From Diphasiastrum complanatum (taxonomy: Eukaryota; Streptophyta; Lycopodiopsida; Lycopodiales; Lycopodiaceae): a DNA stretch of 64,000 bases. The DNA is taken from contig CM055096.1 in NCBI GenBank assembly GCA_029204225.1, positions 28,285,995 through 28,349,994 of the forward strand. Direction: 5' to 3'. The notes under the pieces were generated by a model. It was given only the letters and a program-made list of their open reading frames with translations. It was not told where the DNA came from and made no database searches. Of the stretch, positions 7,058 through 61,126 are shown in pieces; positions within the stretch are counted from its first letter, which is position 1; each line of letters starts with the position of its first letter. The position numbers were made by a program, and so were the translations under genes.

Positions 7058-7092
7058 CATTAGAGGAGTTCTCAATATCAAAAAGACCCTTT
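7058..7092 (+). repeat. Left inverted repeat of the candidate element
   Basis: Matches the reverse complement of 19738-19772 over 35 bp with about four mismatches. The core TTCTCAATATCAAAAAGACC is perfect. It begins CATTAGA, at the point where copia similarity ends. Confidence 0.6.
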
Positions 7093-7482
7093 GTAAAGAC
7101 ACTTTTATTTTTTTTCTTTAGTTTCGACCGTCACCAGGCCCAATTAAAATGCACAGATTTGAAATCTACGTAACGTAGTTCAAATTAACTAAAAAATAAA
7201 AATTCAATATAGAAAACTTTGAAATTTGTGTCTGGGCAGCATGGACGTATCCCATTGGTTTCTTCTTCATGCCCGACATGTGCTAATCTATCTGACGTCA
7301 ATATCTCGAGTTAAATTTACTTTACTATGCTGATTAGTATAATGAAATTTTCTAACTATACTAGTTAAAGTTATAGAAATATAGTATGTACAGTTACATA
7401 AAATATGGTATACGCAGTAACTGTGACTATGTTGGCATTCACATTAGATTAAATGTGATACGAAATTAAAATTAAGTAACAT
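7093..7482. other. AT-rich leader before the first gene
   Basis: No ORF or known repeat was recognised. It lies between the left inverted repeat and the first plus-strand gene, so it should hold that gene's promoter; no convincing TATA box could be fixed. Confidence 0.3.
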
Positions 7483-8894
7483 ATGAGAGAGATTTTTGGC
7501 GCCCAAGCTTTGAAAATAGCAATGGCGAGGAGACCCATATCTACAATCGATTCTGTGATTCTTTACAATGAGAAAGATGAAGCTGATAACTGGAAGCCAA
7601 CAAAATATACGAAGAACTCATGGGTATTGCTGCATCCATCATCAAAGGGCAATTTTCGACAAAAGAAAAGAGCAAAAATGACTTACAAATCTTATTGGAA
7701 AGCAAAAATTTTGGAGTTTAAGACTACCCCGGGAGGTCAATCGATATCAGAAGTCTTAGTGCAACATGTATATATGCATTCAGAAATCAAAGTACATGAT
7801 ATCAATCCTCATGATCATCAAAAATGTAATTGTAAGTATATCAAAACATATGCACTCTACAACAATCATAGGTGATTTCCTTTATTGATGCTCTTCAGAT
7901 TATGATTTAAATGCTTCAACATTGTTTTTTTTCTTTCAGATTTATATCCATCATGCATAAGTGAATGGGAGCCTGCACAATCACTTGCAGAAATATTAGA
8001 CGTGATTCACTCTGATGTTGGAAAGCTACAATACAAAGGAAGAAGTCCAAAGGAACTTGCAGATTGTGATATCTATTTTTATGAATCTTTATATACGCCA
8101 CAAACAGATGGAGGTTTTGGCAAGCTCGAAGCAATTCCATTGCCTAGTTTTCAAAGTGATGAGTGGCCTACTCCTGACAGCATTGTTCCTGAATCCTTGA
8201 GATGCAAGCTACTCACTGATATTAAAAATGCTATGAAGATAAGCACATGCTCAAAAATTGTTCACCTAAGTTGGTTTATCTCATTGCATACATTTGTTGA
8301 TTTTTTTTCGAGTGCTAGTGTTCGTAGGACACCAACTTTATTTGTTTGCAAGGATTTATTAGATGAGACTTTGTCAGATCTCATGGATAAGACTGGGATA
8401 GTAAAACAAATAATGACATAGAATGCAGGATTAAAAAGTCCTCAATGATCTTTCGTTATCATATCGAAAAGCAAATGCTCAGTCTCACATTTAGCTACCA
8501 AAGATACAAGAAAATTGAAGGTACATGGCTACTACTGGATCAAGACTTTGAACGAAATGGTCACACAAACCGAATGGAGATAAGCATTATCTACAATGAG
8601 GAATATTTGACTATGGTTGAGGTGGAAGAGCACTGGAAGCTTGATTTTATCAGAACAGAGCTCATGCTATTACAAACCAATCTACCAACATATTTCAGAT
8701 TTATCATCAAAAGAAGACTCGTAAGTACTTTATGTTTATTGCCATTTCAAAATAGAACAAAATATTAGAAAATGTCATCATTTACAATTGCACATTCACT
8801 AATATTTGCCATGTCACAGATGCGAAAAAGACAGGAGCTGATAACGTGCTGCAAAGATCTACCTACAACAATCACCATTGTGGGAGAACAATAG
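7483..8894 (+). CDS. Unrecognised spliced protein, possibly BAH-like N-terminus
   Basis: Three exons fit: 7483-7831, 7940-8720 and 8820-8894, each bounded by GTAAGT donors and CAG acceptors. The last junction is in phase and ends at a stop at 8892-8894; an AATAAA follows near 8940. ATG at 7522 (gcaATGGcg) is an alternative start with better context. The N-terminal 110 residues resemble a BAH domain in outline: a hydrophobic strand NSWVLLH, then YWKAKILEF, then VLVQHVYMHSEI where BAH proteins have a WFYRPEE-like strand. This is a weak, by-eye match. The middle and C-terminal parts (strands such as GTWLLLDQDF, a basic IIKRRLMRKRQ near the end) match nothing I know. The reading frame is interrupted about once within exon 2, so this copy may be a pseudogene. 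It converges with the Ulp1-like gene. If truly BAH, a chromatin-reader role would fit the histone-like neighbour. Confidence 0.5.
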
Positions 8895-9089
8895 TTTCAA
8901 ATAAACTTTAGTAAAAATCTGTGTATACACTCTTTCATTCAATAAATGAAAGCCCAAGTTGGGCATCTATACATGTATTTTGTGCTCCCAAATTCATAAA
9001 CTGGAGCAGCATTTGATATATCAATGTATATTTTTCTATGAAGTCTATACATGTATTTTTGTTCTATGCTATCTATATTTTTTCTGATC
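8895..9089. other. Convergent 3' intergenic region
   Basis: Separates the stop of the plus-strand gene from the stop of the minus-strand protease gene. It contains AATAAA near 8940 for the plus-strand gene and nothing else recognisable. Confidence 0.4.
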
Positions 9090-10271
9090 TTAATTTAGTA
9101 CAACTACATCATCCTTTGCACCATCATCAATAACGGGAGGCTGAATCCTTGCCCTAGCCAGTATACTCAGGCTAATTTCTTGTCTAAATCTGTACACCTG
9201 GCTTGATGTGTACTCAGGAAGTGTAAACTGCAAAATAGAACATTCATGTATTAGTAATGGCCAATAACGTCACCAGAATAGAAAACTAATCATGATTCCA
9301 AAATAAGAATAAACAGAATTTATTACCTTAGAAATATCAACATCTTGTTGAAGGATGAACCACTCAAAAAACAACTTGGCATTGTACAATGTGTACCACC
9401 CACAGTTGAATGAATCATTTTGCTGGGGTGCCTGCAAAATAATCTAGCACACAAGAAATCAATTATGAAACAGAATGAATTAGATTGAAAATATTTCATT
9501 AGAATATTGATTTCAAAATGCTATTAAGAAAAACAGAGTTTACCTTCAAGCTGACGATCTGCCAGTCCACGGAATGGGGAACGTCTGTAGGAATATATTT
9601 ACTTAGATATGGAATGTATGTATCCACATCCTTATGCATATTTCTTGCCAAATTCATCTTGACACAAGAACATTTAATAATATTATTTACAGATCTCTTA
9701 ATAGAGATCAGGTTTAAACTCTAGTGGTCACTGCAAAATAAGATTGAAATTTCTGTAGTTGCAATTCTGAGAACTATTTTCATTGACAATGCCAATGTTA
9801 TTGCATAAAACAACAAGAAGCATTTAATATAACTTACTTTGTATGATAAGGTATGAGCAGATACTTTGTTGCTGGTGTCAATCCACTTGTCAAACACTGT
9901 GACAATGTGTCATTGTTCTCCTTGAAGGCCTGAAGCAGGAAGTTACTCTGCACCAGCAACTCATTTGATAAATATCTTGCAATGTCATATTGCAAGAGTG
10001 TAAGCCCAGACTTTATCACAGGATCACTAATAGAAGCCCATCTGTCTTTGAGATCTAGGCAATTTAGAACTCTAAAATTAATACTAAAATCAAGTTCATC
10101 TAGTCTAAAACAAAAAGGAGTACCAATTGTATCTATAGCATCCAATATGTCTTTCTCAAATTTAAGATAATCATTCGAATCTATATATGTATAAAAATTG
10201 GGAGGAGGAGGAGGAGGTGGATGTGCAGTATCTACAACAATTATAGGAGTATCCAAAACAGAGGTAGCCAT
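9090..10271 (-). CDS. Ulp1/SENP-type cysteine protease (C48-like), four exons
   Basis: Four exons on the minus strand, 10271-9838, 9730-9544, 9431-9327 and 9227-9090, all have GT donors and TTTTGCAG-type acceptors and join in phase to about 287 codons ending in TAA. The N-terminus has a run of seven prolines. The C-terminal half follows the Ulp1 fold: the strand KYLLIPYHTK, then DH followed by SLNLISI (catalytic-His strand), then a helix region, and in exon 3 APQQNDSFNCGWYTL, which carries the oxyanion Gln and catalytic Cys (Q-N-x-x-x-x-C-G). The usual Asp of the triad is not obvious. There is about one interruption, so this copy is probably not functional. Ulp1-like proteases remove SUMO or related modifiers, and many plant DNA transposons carry them. 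It lies directly downstream of the histone-like gene, same strand, 92 bp apart, and may share its promoter. The family assignment is firm; the substrate is unknown. Confidence 0.8.
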
Positions 10272-10362
10272 ATTTACAGCATTATCAACAGCAGCATTAT
10301 CTAGACTTCACAGAATCTCAAGGGTTAGGCTTCACTTTTTTAGGAGCACGCTTGGGGGCTGT

Positions 10363-10827
10363 CTACTTCCTAGGACACTTCGTAGGAAGATTAGTCCTAT
10401 CTACTGGAGTTGGTCTAGGAGCAGCAGACTGAAATACATGTAACCTACAGTACCTATCCCTCATTCTCATCAAAAGCTGAAAATCCTTGGGCATTACGGT
10501 AACCCTCTTGGTACGGATGGCAAGCAAAAAAGAATCCTCAAAAAAAAGGCTAATATAATCTTCAGCAACCTCCTAAAGGCACTGAAGAGCACTCGGTGTG
10601 AATCTAACGTGTTGTCCGAGATCATTTCTTGTTATGTTCCGGACAGCAGGGTAGAATGGAGCTCTTGGGATCAACAGAGCTGTTGACCTCTGATACTTGC
10701 GTATCTCAGAGAGCCACTTGTTGCGGTTGCGCGTTCTAGGTCTAGCAGGTGGTGTGATGGCAACCACAGGAGATGAGGATGAGCTAGGAGAGAAGAAGTC
10801 TCTCCTTGTCTGCTTTCTCCTATCCAT
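10363..10827 (-). pseudogene. Divergent histone H3 / CENH3-like protein
   Basis: The translation starts MDRRKQTRRD, echoing the ARTKQTARK tail of H3, then has a serine/proline/arginine tail. The histone fold aligns end to end: alpha-N (LSEIRKYQRSTALLIPR), alpha-1 (PFYPAVRNIT), a loop 1 one residue longer than canonical H3, alpha-2 (AEDYISLFFEDSFLLAIR), then RTKRVTVMPKDFQL leading into alpha-3. ALLIPRAPF and the longer loop 1 recall CENH3, whereas VMPKD recalls canonical H3. The C-terminus extends about 30 residues beyond H3 and is basic and proline-rich. No intron. About one interruption falls in the fold and another in the tail extension, so it reads as decayed. It diverges from the gene at 11662 across an 834-bp regulatory region and precedes the protease. 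It could be an element-borne histone or a captured host H3 variant. The fold assignment is confident by eye; the subtype is not. Confidence 0.82.
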
Positions 10828-11275
10828 GGGCGTGAACTATGAAATAGCGGACTTGTGCGTGAAGGTTAGGATGAGAAGGGAGGGATGATAAAGAACTCGC
10901 TGAGGACCACTATGTACGGACATAATGTACGGTATATCGGACCTATGCGAGCCGAATATCAGAGAGAACGATTAGATTTGAGGAAAGACGCACAAGTGCG
11001 ATATGGGGTGACACGTAGGCAGACGTATAGGACTTGTGCGCATGGAAGGCAATAGGAGGAATTTTGATTGTGAAGGGCGCGCACAAATGCGATATGCGGA
11101 GCAAAAGAAAAAGTGAAAAAAAACTCATCAAAATTTGTGATTTTATATCAGGGTTCGCACATGCAAAAGAATGTCCTATCACACATGTGGGAGTTGTACG
11201 GACAAACGCGAGAGCGACACATGTCACCTTGTCACATTACACATGTGGGATTTGTACAATCGAATGTGAGAACGA

Positions 11276-11417
11276 CACGTGTTTATGAGCAATCGAATGA
11301 ACACGCGACACGTGTTCAGGTGTCATTTCACACGTGTGCAGGTGTCATCTCACACGTGCCTGCGCCTGTTGTCTAATTGAAAGAAGACACGTGTCATAAG
11401 TCCGTTGACCACACGTG
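11276..11417. promoter_or_regulatory. Array of six G-boxes (CACGTG)
   Basis: Perfect CACGTG hexamers start at 11276, 11309, 11331, 11353, 11388 and 11412, most within ACACGTG or CACGTGT contexts. CACGTG is the core site of plant bHLH and bZIP (ABRE/G-box) factors. Degenerate ACACATGTG versions lie just upstream, near 11181 and 11240. Confidence 0.75.
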
Positions 11418-11428
11418 CAAAAATTTAG

Positions 11429-11434
11429 TATAAA
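11429..11434 (+). promoter_or_regulatory. TATA box of the 11662 gene
   Basis: TATAAA in tagTATAAAtgac, 12 bp after the last G-box and 228 bp before the ATG. The position fits a core promoter with a leader of about 200 bp. Confidence 0.55.
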
Positions 11435-11661
11435 TGACACGAAAACCGAATAATTTTTTTACCTTTTGCGTTCTCGAAATTCGCGACATATCGCTTTTGT
11501 GCGCGCTCATTGCTGTCCGTTTGCTTGCAACTATACCTACTCGTACACAAGTGTGATATTCTGTATCTGTCTGCCGTACATATCCATCTTCTGTGCCATT
11601 TTGATAGTTAGTTTTGGTTCAGTTCTCCCGCGCGCACAAGTGCAATATTCACGTTACTGCC

Positions 11662-13164
11662 ATGGCCTCTTCCTCATCATCCTCACGAGAATCAGGCTTG
11701 AGTTCATTTCTGAGTGAATTTGGGATTACTGAAAATCTAGACTACTTCTACAGTCTATTCAGGCCATATCTACATGTTTTCAAGACTGCACAACCAAATT
11801 CTGACGTATTTTATGAACATTATGTCAGATTCAGAGATATACTTAGCAAGCTTGTTTTCTCCATAGGTCCACTCCAGTACATGCATTATACTGATCTTGT
11901 TCATTTCTTCCTAGCTTTTAGACATAAACTGGATAGAATGTTCACCAAATTGTTTGATCTTTTCAAAAGTAGTTCTATGTGTCCGTATTGCAACAAGAAA
12001 TGTCGATTGGTTGAATATCAGAGTGGTTTCATACTTTTTCTATTAGTTCAGATCCCAGATGATGATGAAGTTCTTGTTGCTGACCCTCCTCTGTTCAGTC
12101 AGCCATTAAGGATATCAGTCACTTGCTTATTGACACTCCTGATAAAGAAAGTGACTTCATTGATGTAAATACTGATGCTCTCCGAGATTCTTTCATTGGC
12201 CAAAATACATCTGATGATAAATCCAAATCTATGGAGGATTCGAAATGTCTTTTCAATTTGTCTATATATTATATTAATGACGATGTATATTTTACTACTG
12301 CTGATTTATGTAATTTTTTTGACTATCGTGAGGACGAGGTTCCATGTTTATTATCCGGCACAATTTCTGAATTCTCCGACTTTGTAGATTTTGAGACAGA
12401 TGACCTTGTTGTTGGTATTGATTTTGATGATGAGGAGGGTCTTATGATCGGTGAAGAATGCCTAAATAAGACTTTATCAAATATAGTTGAGGATGGGCGA
12501 GGCAGACCATCCGATGAAGAATTCAAGGCATTTCAATGCCAGATGGGCTTCCCTCGTCCATCATTAATGCATTTCACTGATGATTCCACTTCAATACATG
12601 GTCATTATATTGATCATCCTGATCTGGTTGCTGCTGATGATGAAGAATGTGTAAGTGTTTAATCTTCCTTGCATTTGAATGTTTTCAATCACTGAATGTG
12701 TTTTGCTAACATATTTCCTATTGCAGGATGCTCTCATAATAGATGATTTTGCTGCAAGACGAGGTGGTTTCAGACAACACGCATCCTCGTTCCAGAAGGA
12801 CAGTGGACTGGGCCACTATCTTCGGCATTTCTTGAAGAATGAGATCTGTATTGCTCATTCCAAGTTGAGCCCAGTCGGGGAGAGTCTTATAATGGCAGTT
12901 AAAGCTTTATCATTTTATCTAGGAGGACATAAATTTGTTAAGACAAATAAGATTATTTTTGTCAAAAGATCTTATGTTTTGAACATTTTAGGCTTTATTG
13001 ATGGGAATGTCCCTTTAAGAAGCTCACATTATTCATTGTATTCCACTTATATTGAGCTTAGTGGAAATAAGGATAATGCACATCTATTAGATGCATACGC
13101 TAGCAGAGAATTTCTGCATGACAATACTACCATAGAAACTGATACAAGATCTAATGATGAATAG
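11662..13164 (+). CDS. Unrecognised spliced protein with CxxC motif and acidic middle
   Basis: The start at 11662 has a strong context (gccATGGcc) and gives MASSSSSSRESGLSSF. Exon 1 runs to 12650, a 76-bp intron (12651-12726, GTAAGT...TTGCAG) follows in phase 0, and exon 2 ends at 13164. The N-terminal 130 residues are helical and rich in aromatic residues, ending in MCPYCNKKC, a possible half zinc site. The middle is strongly acidic (many D/E between about 12300 and 12650). Exon 2 is better conserved in appearance, with a basic and hydrophobic mix (GHYLRHFLKNEICIAHSKL). About one frame interruption lies in exon 1. No known domain was recognised. It is driven from the shared G-box region and converges with the minus-strand gene ending at 13285. 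Confidence 0.5.
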
Positions 13165-13284
13165 TTGACACTTTGTATTTTGGTATAGTACAATCAATAC
13201 ATTTACATTGGGTATTTCTCCTCTCTTGTTCAATGAATTTGCAAAGCAATTCTGAACATGTCATGATGATCTTCTACTCAACAA

Positions 13285-14739
13285 TCATCTAATTTTCTCT
13301 TCCTGTATGAACTTGCATGCTTTTCTAAACTTGTTGTATTGTGTGGACTTTGTTATATGTCGAATCTGAAATCTGCAGTAGAACCACTGAAACAATTGAC
13401 AAATGTAGTTTCTTATACCAACCCTTTCCATCTTCTGCCCTTTCACAATTTCTGACTCATCTAACTTAAGTACTATGATTATTTTGCCATTCACCTTTTC
13501 ATAGGTTATATTATAGAATGTGACGATGTATCTCAGCAAGTAATTTAGATCAACAAATAAATTGTTTGATGAATTATAAAATATCGACCTTCCATCAGTT
13601 TCATACACCTCCTCAATATGAAATGGAGTTCCAGTGATCTTATGCATACCTATGTTTAATGTATCCCTCTCTTTCTTCAAGTGATATGTCCTAGGGATTG
13701 GGACTTTTCTAATTTGAACTTGCTTAAAAGCTTCTCTAATTAGTTTAAATATTGTTGCATATGCTTCCCTATTAATACCTGCAAAATCACAAGCACCCTG
13801 AACTATAGTCTTATCTAAAATATTTTGAATGTCCACCATCAAAGACTCTGCTATTTTACACTTTACATTTGAAATCCTATTGTTCATCATGATACGCTCA
13901 GTGGATTTGCAAGTCAATATTGTGTCCAATGACATTCCTAGTAAAGCATTGTCTTTAATATTCCAAGGAGCTACTAATGCAGATCTGCAAAAAAAACAGA
14001 TAGTTAACAGAATATCACCATAGCTGAAATTAAATCCAAATGTCATTGAAAAACTTACAAAATTTAGAATATGCTTACTTGAATGCACGGATCCTTCTAT
14101 TTCGATAACCTCCTTTTGAAAGCGTTTGAATATCCTTGCAACTTTGTCGCTTTCGCTTCTTACTTTCAACCTTCTTCTTTACCAAATCCACATCCTTCAA
14201 TAATTGTAAGTTCTCAATACGAATAGACTGTAAGACTGATTGCATTAGCTCTAGTTTTGATTTAATATTGATTGTTATCTTATGTAATGATTCATTATGT
14301 TTTTTAAGTTGTTCATTTTCTTCTAACGTCTTTTGGAGATGACAATCTCTATTCTGGCAATAAGAGGATATCTGAATTAACTCACCTTCTGAAAAGTGAA
14401 CTTTATTCATATAAAGTTGTTTTCCATGGTTTCACAATCTTTCACAATATCCTAGTAATCCACTATGCCCATTGCATATCCATGTAACTAAATGAGTTAT
14501 TGAAGAGAATGTGGGATGTGTCAAAGTGCTTGGATCTTGTGGATATAATGTTCCATCTGTCCACAAATCCACATTTTTCTTTCCTTCTGCCCTGTAATGA
14601 GAACGATCTTCAGCAGATATTTGAACTCCTTTGCCTCCTCTTCTCTGCAAAGGTGCCAAATCAATAGGGATATCCACATGTAGATGATATAATGTCATCA
14701 TCAAAAAATAAATAGAATAATCAGTTGCATCAAAGTACT
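13285..14739 (-). CDS. Unrecognised coiled-coil protein, 5' end split off by copia A1
   Basis: On the minus strand an exon running from the copia insertion site down to 14079, a 94-bp intron (13985-14078, GTAAGC...TTTGCAG) and a second exon 13984-13285 give about 460 residues with about one interruption. The first part has HLHVDIPIDLAPLQRRGGKG. The region around 14075-14400 is a coiled coil (LEENEQLKKHNESLHKI and following) with a basic ESKKRKR stretch that could be a nuclear localisation signal. The second exon ends with strands such as NGKIIIVLKLDESEIVKG and a basic C-terminus. The hydrophobic strand ending in LD recalls the first catalytic strand of RNase-H-fold transposases, but no second or third acidic residue could be placed, so this is only a suggestion. 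Its 5' end should lie beyond 19280 and was not found. It is the best candidate for the element's own DNA-handling protein. Confidence 0.5.
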
Positions 14740-15441
14740 TGTGAAAGTACTGTACTTTAGGAGCATAAATGGATCTACAAAAGATCCACAAGAGTGATTG
14801 GATGCTTGCTTAACAATCTATCAAAAAACTAGACACAAAAAAGTTGATCTAGATTGGCAATTTGACAAACAAGCAGCATTCACAATCAAAAGCATTGATC
14901 AACATTGAATCTGAGCCCACACGTGTGTACTACAGGCTGTAGTACAGCCTTCAACCTGAGAAACAAGTAGAAATTGATTTGGTTTCATTTGGATCACAAA
15001 AACTCAATGTACATAGTGAACTAGCTTGAGATTGCCAATGAGCTCCAAAATTTTTTCTATCTTCTCACTATGGGAGCTTGGAATACATAGCAAATTCGAC
15101 TTCCTTCTTGAAGTTAGGTGGATTTCTAGCATGTAATAAGGAAGTTAACTCACCCTTCTTGCCCTAAAATGAAACCCTAGTCTATTTCCTAGAGTCATGC
15201 TTGGTAGATAGCTAGTTGGTCAAATTTTCACCTTAAATCTAGGATTTAGGTCCTATAAACTAGGAATCACTACCAAAATGACATGACCAACCCTATGGAC
15301 TTGACCTAACCTACATTAGGAGTGGGTTTCCACGTGGCATCTTGGCCTCACATGTGTGGAATCCACTTATGTACAAAATTTACATTATACTACATGGTTT
15401 TTGATCAAGCTAGATTTGCCAATTTTTGGCAATTCTTCACA
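14740..15441 (-). repeat. Copia A1 3' LTR
   Basis: Direct copy of 18594-19279; read on the plus strand it runs TGTGAAAGTAC to CTTCACA. Confidence 0.9.
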
Positions 15442-15649
15442 CTCCTCAAATTTAGCTTGATCTATTTACAACTCTCTTGATAGATGAATGAAAGCTTTTA
15501 GAAGTTTCTAAAAAATCCAGTTACAAACAAGGAACTTTTGAGACTCCAATAGACAATGATGTCCATGAAGGATCTTTCACCACCTCTTACAGGATCCCTT
15601 ACAAGATGTTCCACAAATGTGTCTATATACATGTAGCACACTTCACAAA

Positions 15650-17830
15650 CTATACATCATGCCAAGCCATGGATTCCAAGGCATTTTGTGCACTTGAAGA
15701 TACATCAATAAAACTATTAAGTGCATACATAATGTTGCCAAAGACAACTTGCCTTGCTTGATCCATATGATTGAGCCTAGATGGCTCCATCTTGATACTC
15801 AAGGTTCTTCTTGGAGTCCTTGGGTCTTGAGCTTGCTCCTCCACTTGACTTGACTCCAAAAAATCAATGAATTGAATAAGGTGTTGATCCAAAGGTGCTT
15901 CTTCAAGTTTACAGATCTTCCACTCTTGAAAGATCACATTTTCACCATTGACAAATTCTTTGGTTGAAAACAAGTAGATTCTACAATCTCTACTTGAAGA
16001 GCAAAACACTACCATTATTCCTATCATTGAAATATGATAATATTTGGTCCTTACATTGGAATGATCATGCTCAAAGCATGTGGACCCAAAGATTTCCAGT
16101 ACAAATGATGTTTCATCTTTTATGACACTATTCAAACTATTACAAAAATAGTTATCCAATGAAATTGTTTTATCAACAACAAATGGAGATTTGAAAGCAT
16201 CTAATTTCATTGTCTTGTCATAAAGAGTACTAAACACCATAGATCTTAAAGATAAGCAACAAGTCACTCCATATCTACTAATACTATCCAACAAGTACTC
16301 AAAGATAGTAGACTCTCCAATGCTCACCACCCTTGCAAAATGCACACTTGAATGGACAATTTGCATGCAATTTGATGACTTGACCATTGTCATTGAGGAC
16401 TCCCTTGGAACTCTCATGATTTGAGGCTGATCCTCAAGATCTTCCTCCTTTTGATGCTCCTCCTCAATGCAAGCAAGATCACACTTTGCCAAGATCTCCT
16501 CTTGAGTGATCTCCTCATTTGCCAAGCTCATTCTTTCAAAAGCAACACTAGCTTCCAACTTAAACAATCTTCCATGTTTAAATCCCTTTGCAATGCAAAC
16601 ATCATTCTTCAAGATGAAGCAAACACCATGCTTAAAGTGGACATCCAAACCACTTTCTAAGAGTAGACCAACACTAAGCATATTCTTGGTGATTGATGGT
16701 ACATAAAGGACATTTTCTAGATCCATGCATTTTGAGGATTTTAGACACAAAGAGATGGTGCCAACACCATCTATCCTACACTCTTCATCATTTGCAGTAA
16801 AGACAAACTTTTTAGCATCATTGAACGAGTGTAAGGTTGAGAAAAAGTCCTTTTCACAAGACATGTGGGAGCTAGCCCCACTGTCGATCCACCAATTGTC
16901 TCTTGAATTGCTATTGGTTGTTGGTGAGGATGTAGATGCCATCAAGAATACATCTACTTCATCCTCCTCCTCCTCCTTTGCAAGGTTTCCTTGTTTGTCC
17001 TCCTCCACTTGTGCTCTTAGCCTCTTGTAGCATTCAGATGCATAATGCCCCTTCTTTCCACAAAAGAAGCATTTCAGCTTTGACTTGTCCTTTGAACTTG
17101 ATGCATCATCCTCTTCTTTGGCCTCCTTTGGATGCTTTTTCTTTCCATTGGTCTTCTTTTTGCCCTTGAATGAGAAATTGGCTTTCTCATCACCATCCTG
17201 CAAAGACAAGGAACTCATCCTAGATTTTGCATGGAGCATCCTACACTCTTCAGCCACTAATACACTGTGAAGTTTTTCTATAGTTGGCAAAGTGTCTTGG
17301 ATGGAAAAACTTTGGACCAAATTTGCAAAGTCATATCCTAGACCATTAAGGACAATTTGTACAAGCTCTCCATCATGAATTTTCTCTCCAATGGAAGCCA
17401 ACTCCCTATTTAGAGACTTGATTCTAAGTACATAATCATGTGCACTCTCCTCACTTCTCTTCATGCTTTGCAAAATCTGATTTCTAAGCATGAGTACTCT
17501 TGAAGTGTTACTAGATTCATAGATTGATTTTAAAAACTCCCAAGCCTCTTTAGCACTAGTACAAGCTGATACTTCTCTGAACAAATCATTGCTCACATTC
17601 ATCTTCACACAATGAAGTGCAAGCCTAGATCTCTTCTTGTATCTAGCTAACTCCTGTGCACCTAGAGGTTCATCTTCATCTTCAATCAAGAACTCATGAA
17701 GGTCTTGGAGCACCAAGAGTGACTCCATCCTAACCTTCCAAATAGCATAGTTTGTAGAATTCAATCTCTCACTAGCTTCTATAAGGTATGCTCCAGCAGA
17801 TCCCATCTTACTAGTGACTTCTACAAACAA
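15650..17830 (-). CDS. Gag-protease ORF of copia A1 (726 codons)
   Basis: The first 250 residues form a UBN2/Retrotran_gag-type copia Gag (LNSTNYAIWKVRMESLL at the start). A CCHC zinc knuckle CFFCGKKGHYASEC lies near residue 258 and the aspartic protease motif WWIDSGASSHM near 318. The last 250 residues include a stretch resembling the linker after copia integrase (VRTKYY, NVIFQEWKICKLEEA), showing that the middle of pol has been lost while the ends remain. The frame is open throughout. It encodes particle structure and processing only. Described as part of a fossil family. Confidence 0.9.
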   Translation of the reverse strand: MFVEVTSKMGSAGAYLIEASERLNSTNYAIWKVRMESLLVLQDLHEFLIEDEDEPLGAQELARYKKRSRLALHCVKMNVSNDLFREVSACTSAKEAWEFLKSIYESSNTSRVLMLRNQILQSMKRSEESAHDYVLRIKSLNRELASIGEKIHDGELVQIVLNGLGYDFANLVQSFSIQDTLPTIEKLHSVLVAEECRMLHAKSRMSSLSLQDGDEKANFSFKGKKKTNGKKKHPKEAKEEDDASSSKDKSKLKCFFCGKKGHYASECYKRLRAQVEEDKQGNLAKEEEEDEVDVFLMASTSSPTTNSNSRDNWWIDSGASSHMSCEKDFFSTLHSFNDAKKFVFTANDEECRIDGVGTISLCLKSSKCMDLENVLYVPSITKNMLSVGLLLESGLDVHFKHGVCFILKNDVCIAKGFKHGRLFKLEASVAFERMSLANEEITQEEILAKCDLACIEEEHQKEEDLEDQPQIMRVPRESSMTMVKSSNCMQIVHSSVHFARVVSIGESTIFEYLLDSISRYGVTCCLSLRSMVFSTLYDKTMKLDAFKSPFVVDKTISLDNYFCNSLNSVIKDETSFVLEIFGSTCFEHDHSNVRTKYYHISMIGIMVVFCSSSRDCRIYLFSTKEFVNGENVIFQEWKICKLEEAPLDQHLIQFIDFLESSQVEEQAQDPRTPRRTLSIKMEPSRLNHMDQARQVVFGNIMYALNSFIDVSSSAQNALESMAWHDV

Positions 17831-18593
17831 GAAATAGATTTGATTGACTTGAAACTCACAAAGGTCTCACACTTGCAGTGTTTCACTCAAATTTGATTTC
17901 TAATCCAACAAATGGACTTATAATCACAGTTCTATCACTCCCTCACAAAGCTGGAATGAAGATAAGATGAAGTGAAAACTACTTTCAAACAAATCTTGCC
18001 AAGAAATGGATTTGATTGTCTCTAGAAACTCACTAAGGTCTCTCTCTTGTAGTCTTTCACTCAAATTAGATTTCTAATCCAACAAATGGACTTATAATCT
18101 CAGTTCTAGAACTCCCTCACAAAGTTGGAATGAAGATAAGATGATGTGAAATCTACTTACAATCAAATCTTGCCAATTTTGGCTATTTTTGGACAAAAAA
18201 ATGACTTAATCTCTTCCTTCCTTCTTGGTGTACTTTCAAGACCTATTTTTAACCTTAATAGGACTTGAACTCAGCCTAGATTAATTAGATTCCATGAATT
18301 CAAATCTAATCAATGGCAAATGATCTTGGTAGATTATCCTAGGATCTCCACCAAAAATTACACCAACAGCTCACAAATTGATTTTTTTTGGATCAAATGA
18401 ATACCATGCATTAAATGCAGGTTCAGAGGTGCCAACACATGTTTGGACCCCTACCAAGTTTGGGATCAAATCTCCTCACCAAAATCAAGATTCTAGCTTG
18501 CCCTCTCAATACTAGTTTTTAGCACCAAAACTTGCTAAAAATGGATTTGCATTAGCTCAATGGCTTATGCTCTTGTACTTGGCTATGATACCA

Positions 18594-19279
18594 TGTGAAA
18601 GTACTATACTTTAGGACCATAAATGGATCTACAAAATATCCACAAGAGTGATTGGATTCTTGCTTAACAATCTATCAAAAAACTAGACACAAAAAAGTTG
18701 ATCTAGATTGGCAATTTGACAAACAACAAGCATTGATCAACATTGAATACGAGCCCACACGTGTGTACTACAGGCTGTAGTACGGTCTAAAACCTGAGAA
18801 ACAAGTAGAAATTGATTTGGTTTCATTTGGATCACAAAAACTCAATGTATATAGTGAACTAGCTTGAGATTGCCAATGAGCTCCAAAAAAATTTCTATCT
18901 TCTCACTATGGGAGCTTGGAATACATAGCAAATTCGACTTCCTTATTGAAGTTAGGTGGATTTCCAGCATGTAATAAGGAAGTTAACTCACCCTTCTTGC
19001 CCTAAAATGAAACCCTAGTCTATTTCCTAGAGTCATGCTTGGTAGATAGCTAGTTGGTCAAATTTTCACCTTAAATCTAGGATTTAGGTCCTATAAACTA
19101 GGAATCACTACCAAAATGACATGACCAACCCTATGGACTTGACCTAACCTACATTAGGAGTGCATTGCCACGTGGCATCTTGGCCTCACATGTGTGGAAT
19201 CCACTTATGTACAAAATTTACATTATACTACATGGTTTTTTATCAAGCTAGTTTTGCCAATTTTTGGCAATTCTTCACA
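18594..19279 (-). repeat. Copia A1 5' LTR with adjacent primer-binding site
   Basis: Direct copy of 14740-15441. On the minus strand it is followed at once by TGGTATCATAGCC, close to the initiator Met tRNA complement. Confidence 0.88.
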
Positions 19280-19737
19280 GTACTATGACCAGATTCTATG
19301 AAGCAAAACAAAATACTCATCTTTGATTATATTATATACTATGTACAATCAATCCAGTCTCCATGCTTGTATGCTTGATTCAAATTTGGAAATGTCGCTC
19401 ATTTTTTCATTCCAATAGGTAGCTGGCACTCATATTTCCATTCTCGTGGAAGGAATGCATATGTAAACATTTTGCAATTTTTCCTTATTCGAATTTGGAG
19501 ATGGCGGTCATATTCTAGATCCAGTGAAAATATTGCCCTTTTCGTAACCAATGGAGGGAATATTTTTGAATTTAGTCAAGTTATACTGCGAACTGTTAAC
19601 AGTTCTTAACTGTGACTATAGACACTGTGGGTAGATCATTGGGAGTTGGGGAGGCCTTGGGAGTGGTGTGGACAAGCAAATAAACAATATTGTTTTATTT
19701 ATTTTGATATTTTTGTATATCCTACATGACATTCCAT
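19280..19737. other. Remaining right part of the candidate element, no gene seen
   Basis: This should hold the 5' portion of the gene split by copia A1, but no exon could be defined. Two imperfect direct repeats of about 25 bp (ATTCAAATTTGGAAATG at about 19378 and a GAATTTGGAGATGGCGGTCAT version at about 19490) lie here. Confidence 0.3.
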
Positions 19738-19772
19738 AAATGGTCTTTTTGATATTGAGAACCTTTCTAATG
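19738..19772 (-). repeat. Right inverted repeat of the candidate element
   Basis: Reverse complement of 7058-7092 with about four mismatches. The next recognisable sequence, copia B RNase H, begins about 60 bp further right. Confidence 0.6.
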
Positions 19773-21480: not shown

Positions 21481-23196
21481 TGGTTGGTCAAAATCTCATC
21501 ACCAATCAAGGTCTAGATCCTGTAAAGTAGAGATCTCTACCAAATGGACATGACCACTCCTCTTGAATCGAGCTAACCTACATTAGGTGTAAATTTCCAT
21601 GTGGCACTTTGGCCATACAAGTGTAGAATCAAATTATAGACAAAAATGTACAATATTCTACATGGCTAGATTTGCCAATGTTGGCAATTTTTCACACTCC
21701 TCATCAAATCTAGCCATGGAAACAATAATACTTCTATCAATCACTCCAATTGAAGACCTAAGCTTGACAAATGAATCTTTAGGTAAAGCTTTAGTAAACA
21801 AATCAGCCAAGCAACTTGATGATGGCACATGTTGGAGCTTGATCTCTTTGGCTTGCACTTTCTCCCTCACAAAATGATGAGCAGTCTCGATGTGCTTGCT
21901 CCTTGCATGGAATGTAGGATTAGTAGCAAGTGATTGGGCTAATTGGTTGTCACAATAGATGATTGGGATCTCCTCCTCCATAAACATGAAGCTCCACCAA
22001 TAGCCTTTTGAGCCACAAGACCTCCTTGCATGTTGATGTGAAGGCCTTGTACTCGGATTCTGTGGAAGATAAGGAGATTATATCTTGCCTTTTGAAAAGC
22101 CATGATACCACTCCATCACATAGAAAGGTGGCAAATTGATTCCCTATCCACTTTGTCACCTGCAAAATCCAAGTCACTTTAGGCTCTTAAGCCAAGATTA
22201 GTCTCTCTATTTGATATGCCAAAATTCTTAGTAGATGAAATGTATCTAAGAATTCTTTTGGCCATCTTCCAATGTGAAACTAGAGGACTTTGCATGAATT
22301 GGCTATATTTTCCAATACTATGACTAAGATCAGGTCTAGTTATAGTTAAATAAATCAAGGAGCCTACAAGCCTTCTATATAAAGTGATGTCCTCAAAGGA
22401 TGCTTCATCACCATCAATAGATGCTTTACATGTTGCTCCATTGGAGTCTCAATGCCTTTACAATTCTTCATTCCAAATCTATCTAGGATGGATGTAGCAT
22501 ACTTAGATTGACAAATGTAGAGCTTCAAATGATGTGATTCCTCCAATGGCTTGGTTGGACAATCTATTGCACAAATAGTTAGCACAAGTTATTGCCTCAC
22601 CCCAAAATGGTTTGGGTAGAGAAGCATCTAGCCTTAAGGCCTTACAACACTCACAAAGAGATCTATTTCTCCTCTCACTCACTCCATTTTGTTGAGGGGT
22701 GTATGGACATGACAACCCCCTCTTTATGCCATTTCCATTGGTCTTCTTTTTGGCTTGAATGAGAAATTAGCTTTCTCATCACCATCCTGCAAAGACAACG
22801 AGTTCAATCTTGCTTTGGTGTGTAACATCCTATACTCTTTAGCCACTAATACACTCTATAATGGGCAAGGTGTCTTGGATGGCAAAACTTTGAACCAAAT
22901 TTACAAAGTCATCTCCTAGACCATTAAGGACAATTTATACAAGCTCTCCATTTTGAATCTTCTCTCCAATGGAAGCCAACTCCCTATTTAGAGACTTGAT
23001 TCTAAGCACATATTCTTGTGCACTCTCCTCACTTCTTCTCATGCTTGAGGACTCTCAAAGTGTTGCTATACTCATAGATTGATTGTATAGACTCCCAAGC
23101 CTCTTCAGCACTTTTACATGATGATACTTCCCTCAAAAGATCATTGCTTACATTCATTTTCACATAGTGAAGTGCTAGCCTAGATCTCTTTTTGTA

Positions 23197-24101
23197 TGAC
23201 AGATATTTGTAGTACAAATGAGTATCGTTCCTACTGGGAAACAATAAAAGGGCTAATACTGTCATTATTAGAGCAAAACAGAGAAATACCAAGAATGAAT
23301 GGAGTGGAGAGTGATTTCGATCAAGTTGGTCATCTACAGACGTTTCAGTAGTGAGGCAGCCTAGACCACCTTTGGATTATATATAATCAAACACCGAAAG
23401 ATATTGAATACTTTCAAATGGGATTGAAACTCAAGAAAGCAAATACTTTGGCAAAGAAGAAGCTACATTGTGAAATCCGTTCCTTTATCTTGACAGTAGC
23501 TTATCATGAATTCAACTCCTACGACATGCACAAATCATAAAATTGTAGGCTAGAAACACTTCACTAGACAATTCCAGTCTAAAGTGTTTTGAATCACACA
23601 ACTTCTTTCTATCGTGAATACCTTCTATGCTTTTTGTGGTGATTCATTTTGGTAATAGGAAGTTTATGACACTGTATGCTAATGCTTATTACACAGTATT
23701 TAGACTGAAAGTGTCTATTGAAGTGTTTCTAGCCTACAATCTTATGATTTGCGCAGGTCATAGGAGTTAGATTCATGATAAGCTACTGCCAAGATAAAGG
23801 AACAGATTTCACAATGTAGCTTCTTCTTTGTCAAAGTATTTGCTTTCTTGAGTTTTACTCCCATTTGAATCTGAAACTGTAATGAAGTATTCAATATCTT
23901 TCGGTGTTTGATTATATATAATCCAAAGGTGGTCTTGGCTACCTCACTGCTGAAACGTCCGTAGACGACCAACTTAATCGAAATCACTCTCCACTCCCTT
24001 CATTATTGGTATTTCTATGTTTTGCTCTAATAATGACAATATTAGCCCTTTTATTGCTTCCCAGTAGGAACAATACTCTTTTGTACTACAAATATCTGTC
24101 A
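23197..24101. repeat. Large inverted repeat (arms about 390-404 bp, 114-bp spacer)
   Basis: Left arm 23197-23583 and right arm 23698-24101 are inverted copies that begin TGACAGATATTTGTAGTAC and end in its complement. The 114-bp spacer recurs in direct orientation at 24554-24678. It could be a foldback/MITE-like element or two repeat copies inserted head to head. No clear target duplication. Confidence 0.75.
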
Positions 24102-24134
24102 TTTTGTTGTAGGTATGATGCGACATATACCAAT

Positions 24135-60516: not shown

Positions 60517-60592
<76 letters not shown>
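60515..60592. repeat. (CT)n tract, tail of LINE copy 2
   Basis: CT run of about 78 bp joining copy 2 directly to the 5' end of copy 3. Confidence 0.95.
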
Positions 60593-60595
<3 letters not shown>

Positions 60596-61126
60596 CTGGC
60601 ACGATGGCTGCCTGCTGCCTGCTGTCTGAGCGCGATGGCTGCTGCTGCTGACTCCTCCATCGCTGCTGCTGCCCTGGCCTAGCTCGCCCTACCCTGGTCG
60701 CACTCACCCCCCCCCCATGACCTCCATCGCACTCAATGGCCAGAAAAAAGGGGAGCCCTCGCTCCCCTTCCTCTCCTTCGCTACCCCTTCCCTCTCCTTT
60801 GCAGCCTGTCGCTGGCCCTTCACACACCCCCTCGCTGCCTACTCCCTCTCTCACCACCTCTCCCACCCCCTCGCTGGCCCTTCCCACCCCCTCCCACCCC
60901 CTCGCTGGCCCTTCCCACCCCCTCGCTGTCTGCTCAGCCTACTCCCGCCCCTCCCACCCCCTCGCTGGCCCTTCCCAACCCCTCGTTGCCTGCTCACAGT
61001 CCTCCCCCCTCTTCCTTGGCCCTCTCCTTTCTCCATGGTTCTCCTGCCCCCTCCCATTATCCTCTCTCATTCCCTAAAGAAGCCTACTCTCCTACGAAAG
61101 CATTTGAACAGTACCTTCTCTCTTGC
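60593..61126 (+). promoter_or_regulatory. LINE 5' UTR with CCCCTCGCTGGCCCTTCCCA repeats
   Basis: C-rich leader. The unit CCCCTCGCTGGCCCTTCC recurs about four times between 60840 and 60990, with related CTGTCGCTGGCCCTTCA upstream. In L1-like elements such 5' repeats can carry the internal promoter; that role is inferred. Confidence 0.6.

Follow-up and report, generated by a model that had tools for sequence, protein, structure and literature searches.

Plant DNA transposons of the MULE/VANDAL type encode a MULE transposase and produce a target duplication of about 9 bp, and the ends of CACTA/CMC elements read CACT. The available portion of PMC4482050 gives a target duplication of 2–4 bp for CACTA/CMC elements and none for Spy, a member of the PHIS superfamily that prefers AAATTT. 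Related elements become hypomethylated when VANC-type proteins recognize short motifs within them (PMC13317346, in part), and for RAG and Transib elements the rule is a 5-bp target-site duplication, with the end consensus CACTWMC in protostome RAG-like transposons (PMC7204232, in part). Here we compare these systems with an element that occupies positions 7058–19772 of a 64,000-nucleotide stretch of DNA (hereafter, the window) from the lycopod Diphasiastrum complanatum.

The copy in this interval has decayed; the multigene DNA transposon that it represents is roughly 9.4 kb long and has a high copy number and 35-bp inverted ends that begin CATTAG. It carries four genes, designated A (+), H3-Ulp1 (−), D (+), and E (−), and belongs to a family that is present in hundreds of copies and is seemingly undescribed. 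The explanation that we consider highly probable overall combines a decayed multigene transposon, a RAG1/Transib-type enzyme encoded by E, a fusion of a histone H3-like protein with a Ulp1-type protease, blunt insertion at the window site, and a proposed role of the fusion in chromatin.

A multicopy element with common ends and gene order

The initial annotation of the window had proposed that about 8.2 kb of nonretroviral sequence, bounded by a 35-bp inverted repeat, constitutes a single mobile unit of five genes in alternating orientation. A terminal inverted repeat (TIR) of 35 nt is indeed present, its arms being 89% identical, and neither arm matched elsewhere in the window when up to 10 mismatches were allowed. 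The first heptamers are CATTAGA and CATTAGG. Removal of a nested Copia element, which is flanked on both sides by GTACT as read from its insertion junctions, leaves the expected length of about 8.2 kb. Gene models built from splice signals (Table 1) preserve the alternation, but the units number four rather than five because H3 and Ulp1 share a strand and, in 12 intact-frame loci, a single reading frame.

Further copies were sought in the window's own genome (1.74 Gb), for which the type of the Copia element, the composition, and the style of the introns indicate a probable plant host. The TIR pattern, with at most one mismatch, was found 828 times in the forward and 859 times in the reverse orientation (1,687 in all), and the reversed pattern used as a control was found 0 times in each. 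Querying the genome with H3 gave 7,278 first-look candidates and at least 150 scored matches of 82–100% identity, the window included, and a relative of E gave 139 matches within 61 scored candidates. Twelve loci around E were retrieved, eight of which belong to the family of the window (the first family) and four to a second family. By tblastn, the eight first-family loci contain E (8/8), D (8/8), the histone (5/8), Ulp1 (5/8), and, at high identity, gene A (4/8, one of these a 28-residue piece only); one locus is split by an insertion, and in one, D and E are accompanied by a diverged A. Where the genes are present, their order is E> <D H3>Ulp1> <A.

DNA homology among copies stops at 7058, within 1 base, in all three long left-end matches and at 19772 in the seven right-end matches, although one of the latter extends 4 bases and another 1 base further. 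Copy C17 measures 9,414 bp from end to end. When predicted end positions were probed, ten fusion loci (up to two mismatches) yielded the A-side end in seven, the E-side end in one, and both in none; ten E loci yielded the E-side end in seven, the A-side end in one (one stretch reads N), and both in one.

The proposal of a single mobile unit is thus borne out by other copies with the same genes, order, and ends, by the end pairs of complete copies, and by paralogous empty sites for the window insertion. The genes recur together between the same ends, though the set is incomplete in several copies, and the outcomes that the annotation had named as contrary to its proposal, unlinked genes or a single-copy host region, came out the opposite way. 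A host gene block with chance inverted repeats can be practically discarded, given that copy number, common ends, and empty sites refute it and nothing is left in its favor.

Three further loci were noted in the searches. At G000:C1:21359432 and 21391595, two perfect element ends point toward one another and their flanks are mirror images, one insertion end having been duplicated in inverted orientation. An end-like sequence with six mismatches to the TIR (joined L017/L018, position 5032) perhaps marks another related family, and a small contig identical to the right flank of the window (G000:C2497:8628–8674) is perhaps a second haplotype of the locus.

Insertion at the window site without target duplication

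Ten end pairs were compared for target duplication, and one, whose flanks form an inverted duplication, was set aside. Four of the remaining nine are facing perfect ends, 8.1–11.8 kb apart, that are known from the ends alone. A 5-bp repeat was seen in none of the nine pairs (one has 4 of 5 bases in a T-rich flank), and 8- or 9-bp repeats were likewise absent; short flank identities comprised 3/3 bases in one pair and 2/2 in two, the window among these. The joined window flanks, used as a query, gave 40 matches, 37 of which span the junction. In each of the 10 paralogous empty sites aligned, the flanks meet with no bases gained or lost at the junction; 10 bases to the right of the junction is a distinct gap of 10 bp. 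Because the flanks abut exactly in 10/10 empty sites, there is no target duplication at the window insertion, which occurred between two adjacent bases (GGGAG/AGGG); this is established for the window insertion alone.

These results separate the element from several described groups. Neither the nine end pairs (8- or 9-bp repeats) nor the empty sites show the duplication of a MULE, and there is no MULE match in Pfam. The CATTAG ends and the duplication-free empty sites of the window likewise differ from CACTA/CMC elements. Spy resembles the element in lacking a target-site duplication (PMC4482050, in part), but its genes are different, and its preferred AAATTT was found neither at the window site nor at the nine end-pair junctions.

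A probable RAG1/Transib-type transposase

A structure model of P0012, a relative of E, that has a mean predicted local distance difference test (pLDDT) score of 74.7 matches RAG1/Transib structures; an earlier fold model, with a pLDDT of 35, gave nothing usable. Other copies of the element retain a DDE triad together with CxxC and HxxxxH zinc ligands (CCHH) at RAG1-like spacing. The distances D-D, D-C, C-H, and H-E are 96, 20, 203, and 20 in the first family, as read from the E gene of copy C8, whose exon 1 has stops, and 95, 20, 209, and 20 in the second family, as read from exons 1 and 2 of copy C15 and exon 3 of copy C22. The RAG1 numbers in the available portion of PMC4914335 are 108, 19, 207, and 20. 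Checked copy by copy, C22, C15, and C1_98 of the second family each have all of the DDE and zinc-ligand residues; C6 has those of exon 2, and its exon 3, missed by an exact word because a G is changed, was seen in another reading. By the predicted fold of its relative and this residue pattern, E is probably a RAG1/Transib-type DDE transposase. The annotation had listed two unrecognized proteins, a description that no longer fits E.

The likeness to Transib and ProtoRAG thus comprises the predicted transposase fold, DDE and C2H2 zinc ligands at similar spacing, and TIRs, to which may be added the two convergent genes of RAG-like transposons, as D and E are here (PMC7204232, in part). Unlike those systems, the element carries the extra genes A, D, and H3-Ulp1, and there is no sequence-level match. 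A Pfam search alone, which leaves room for a remote relation, gave no match of A or D at the cut-off to a RAG2-like kelch/PHD partner, and the E family had no KDZ transposase match at the cut-off in a profile search made without direct comparison to KDZ proteins. E relatives P0010, P0013, P0015, P0016, P0020, and P0021 sit on 13–23 kb Joint Genome Institute (JGI) contigs.

We infer that E itself moves the element. The window copy, if mobile, needs the enzyme of another copy because its E retains neither the second Asp nor the Glu. The element might instead be a nonautonomous composite whose genes are cargo, moved by an unrelated enzyme encoded elsewhere, with E captured and not driving. The lack of a target duplication, unlike known RAG/Transib enzymes, would fit such a composite, as would the broken E of the window and the end counts at the ten fusion loci (A-side 7 versus E-side 1), by which many copies may lack E. 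However, E adjoins one end of the element in both families, other copies retain the DDE and CCHH residues (the E of C8 itself having exon 1 stops), and E exon 2 has a ratio of nonsynonymous to synonymous substitution (dN/dS) of 0.37; we regard the composite as quite unlikely.

Fusion of an H3-like histone fold with a Ulp1-type protease

Spliced translations of the window genes, with X at stop codons, were searched against Pfam. The fusion matched Histone (3.4e-24) and Peptidase_C48 (2.5e-6), in agreement with the annotated H3-like gene and Ulp1-type protease, and A, D, and E had no match at the cut-off. A BAH-like domain had been suggested for gene A and finds no support in this result. Searches of Rfam gave no match, and those of PHROGs no credible match.

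At 12 loci picked for a stop-free H3 match, H3, a linker, and Ulp1 exon 1 form one frame of 300–337 residues (12/12, one ending early in exon 1). Pooled dN/dS values (bootstrap 5–95% over codons) are 0.56 (0.28–1.18) for the tail, 0.35 (0.24–0.55) for the histone fold, 1.10 (0.78–1.53) for the linker, and 0.34 (0.26–0.50) for Ulp1 exon 1; selecting open frames biases such values low, a bias for which the linker, taken from the same rows, is the control. The protein that the element encodes joins an H3-like fold to a Ulp1-type protease, and the dN/dS of each part is well below 1. A protein search with H3-Ulp1 returned four proteins, generic H3-like and none with Ulp1, and the fusion was not seen in the public protein set. 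The combination of element, histone, and protease was not found in the literature titles and abstracts searched, which is no proof of absence.

Most stops of the fusion (10300–10600) and of E (14432) in the window copy resemble, as read by eye, C-to-T changes (CAG to TAG, CGA to TGA) of the kind seen in methylated DNA.

The histone part has one extra residue in loop 1, and among the sequences compared, first-family H3 is nearest by percent identity to canonical H3 (54–58%). The earlier label of CENH3 is neither supported nor ruled out by phmmer, which ranked canonical H3 and Cnp1 close together, or by an eight-row H3 tree with long branches and weak support (75/82), and CENH3 identity is undecided, host CENH3 being outside the comparison. 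The fusion could be a centromere-targeting device instead of one that opposes silencing: as a mimic of CENH3, it would guide the element toward or away from centromeric chromatin. Its divergent H3 with the extra loop 1 residue would suit that role, as would the motif LLIPRAPF, which we take to resemble CENH3. Against it stand the proximity to canonical H3, the second family, which lacks the loop insertion, and the spread of matches over many contigs, and we consider it unlikely.

Selection on the genes and a symmetric promoter array

Pooled dN/dS was also computed by gene piece from four to nine first-family copies, depending on the gene. The values are 0.19 (D2), 0.39 (D1a), and 0.45 (D1b) for D, whose exon 2 is the lowest of the pieces tested; 0.37 (E2) and 0.64 (E1) for E; 0.43 (U1), 0.48 (H3), 0.84 (U2), and 1.30 (U4) for the fusion; and 0.57 (A3), 0.75 (A1), and 1.14 (A2) for A.

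Between the fusion and D, a stretch of 834 bp contains a 17-bp motif, GCGCACAAGTGCGATAT, at 8–9 sites (up to four mismatches) in 6/6 copies. At the same stringency the motif is absent elsewhere in the stretches examined, and shuffles gave a mean of at most 0.05 and a maximum of 1; at up to five mismatches, the window has 11 sites inside the promoter region and 5 stray ones. Pooled over copies, 12 sites all fall into dyad-symmetric pairs, a layout matched by 0 of 2000 random ones, although this list was hand-picked, no single copy has all 12, and one site is known from one copy.

Such a symmetric array resembles an origin, and histones and Ulp1-like proteases are present in some large DNA viruses, so that an endogenous DNA virus or virus-like integrating replicon might be considered. 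However, the Pfam matches obtained for the window genes include no capsid or polymerase family, and the ends are common to copies. Scans of viral contigs with E and with D exon 2 found no relative, and the viral fold library gave one match at an E-value of 0.001 or below, to a pandoravirus protein whose annotation is hAT-type. A viral origin is in our judgment very improbable.

A second family

The E proteins of the four second-family loci are 24–29% identical to window E. Their ends, CATTAGGGCCC..., were found on the E side in three loci and on both sides in one, and have CATTAG in common with the first family. Homologs of A, H3, and D (29–51%) lie beside second-family E in 2/4, 3/4, and 3/4 stretches by tblastn, and D was additionally read in the fourth. 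In the E tree, the two families occupy separate branches, the second grouping with P0011 (99/99), and the deepest forks are weak. The association of A, D, E, and H3 seems older than the family split, unless genes were exchanged between families. That the two families inherited one histone does not follow from the comparison, in which the H3 of each is nearer canonical H3 (54–58%) than that of the other family (45–48%); the missing loop 1 insertion of second-family H3 was read by eye. At L023 (1206–2752), diverged fragments of A (51%) and of Ulp1 exon 3 (57%) sit beside a first-family copy, perhaps representing a Ulp1-bearing third family.

Feature coordinates and neighboring sequence

Table 1. 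Features of the element and its nested insertion, in window coordinates.
Feature	Position	Strand	Remarks
Left TIR (A side)	7058–7092	+	Outer end 7058
Gene A	7522–8895	+	Three exons by splice signals; one frameshift near 8391–8420; no known domain
Ulp1 (peptidase C48) part of H3-Ulp1 fusion	9090–10271	−	Exons 10271–9838, 9730–9544, 9431–9327, 9227–9090
H3-like histone-fold part of fusion	10300–10827	−	Three in-frame stops in window copy
Divergent promoter region, 834 bp	10828–11661		Eight sites of 17-bp motif, both orientations (up to four mismatches)
Gene D	11662–13165	+	Exons 11662–12650, 12727–13165; frameshift near 12085–12110; no known domain
Gene E, probable RAG1/Transib-type transposase	13285–14739	−	Internal deletion after first catalytic Asp, then C-terminal remnant only
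Copia long terminal repeat (LTR) retroelement	14740–19279	−	Later nested insertion, target repeat GTACT; not part of element
Right subterminal region (E side)	19280–19737		13-bp direct repeat at 19607, common to left side (7418)
Right TIR (E side)	19738–19772	−	Outer end 19772

Beside the element, a large nested inverted repeat (23196–24102) has arms of 218 and 171 nt with 92–94% identity, and C-rich tandem repeats lie within a GC-rich stretch at 60518–61006.

Discussion

We propose that E would cut and join the CATTAG ends, whereas D and the H3-Ulp1 fusion would be fired together from the 17-bp-motif array, to which D or A may bind to regulate the two divergent genes. The histone part would pair with host H4 and place the protease in the element's own chromatin, and the protease would remove SUMO from silencing factors, permitting transcription and movement. 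The antisilencing role is suggested by analogy with the Ulp1-carrying VANC genes (PMC13317346, in part), and H4 pairing, local SUMO removal, and regulation by D or A through the array are possibilities that we advance tentatively. MULE/VANDAL elements with KIU are similarly multigene plant elements with a Ulp1 domain but have another transposase, and here Ulp1 is joined to a histone fold and target duplication is lacking. Ginger1 is also a DDE transposon that carries Ulp1 (or OTU) domains, but its transposase is of the integrase type with Ulp1 at its C-terminus, and the word histone is absent from the main text of PMC2836005.

Several observations weigh against this interpretation. The 5-bp duplication usual for RAG/Transib is lacking (0/9 end pairs; 10/10 window empty sites), as is the usual CAC-type heptamer, the ends being CATTAGA and CATTAGG. 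The P0012 model represents a relative of E and omits the last exon, which carries HxxxxH and the Glu; RAG1 was not recovered when E relatives were searched by sequence against PDB, leaving no sequence-level RAG1 match, and the E family has no Pfam transposase match at the cut-off. Both ends were found in just 1 of 20 further probed copies, many copies being truncated, rearranged, or interrupted, and dN/dS is about 1 for A2 and U4. No Ulp1 was detected in the second family, in 10-kb stretches that are cut, and the histone role has no direct evidence. Five copies were readable at Ulp1 exon 2. Directly following the catalytic His, C8, C17, and C21 have the codon TGG, and the window and C19 have TAG. 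At the Asp position, C21 alone keeps Asp; the residue differs in the window, C8, and C19, and C17 is frameshifted there. Protease activity stays putative because of these changes or frameshifts in 4/5 copies and the TAG in two.

Whether the element represents a separate superfamily, defined by a RAG1-fold transposase, blunt insertion, and an H3-SUMO-protease fusion deposited at a symmetric array against silencing, is doubtful on present evidence. A transposon-encoded histone-SUMO-protease fusion in which selection acts on both parts would amount to a direct case of a mobile element that influences its own chromatin, and a RAG1-fold transposase that makes no target duplication would widen the known enzyme family behind antibody-gene recombination. 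Because of the high copy number of the element, both points are testable.
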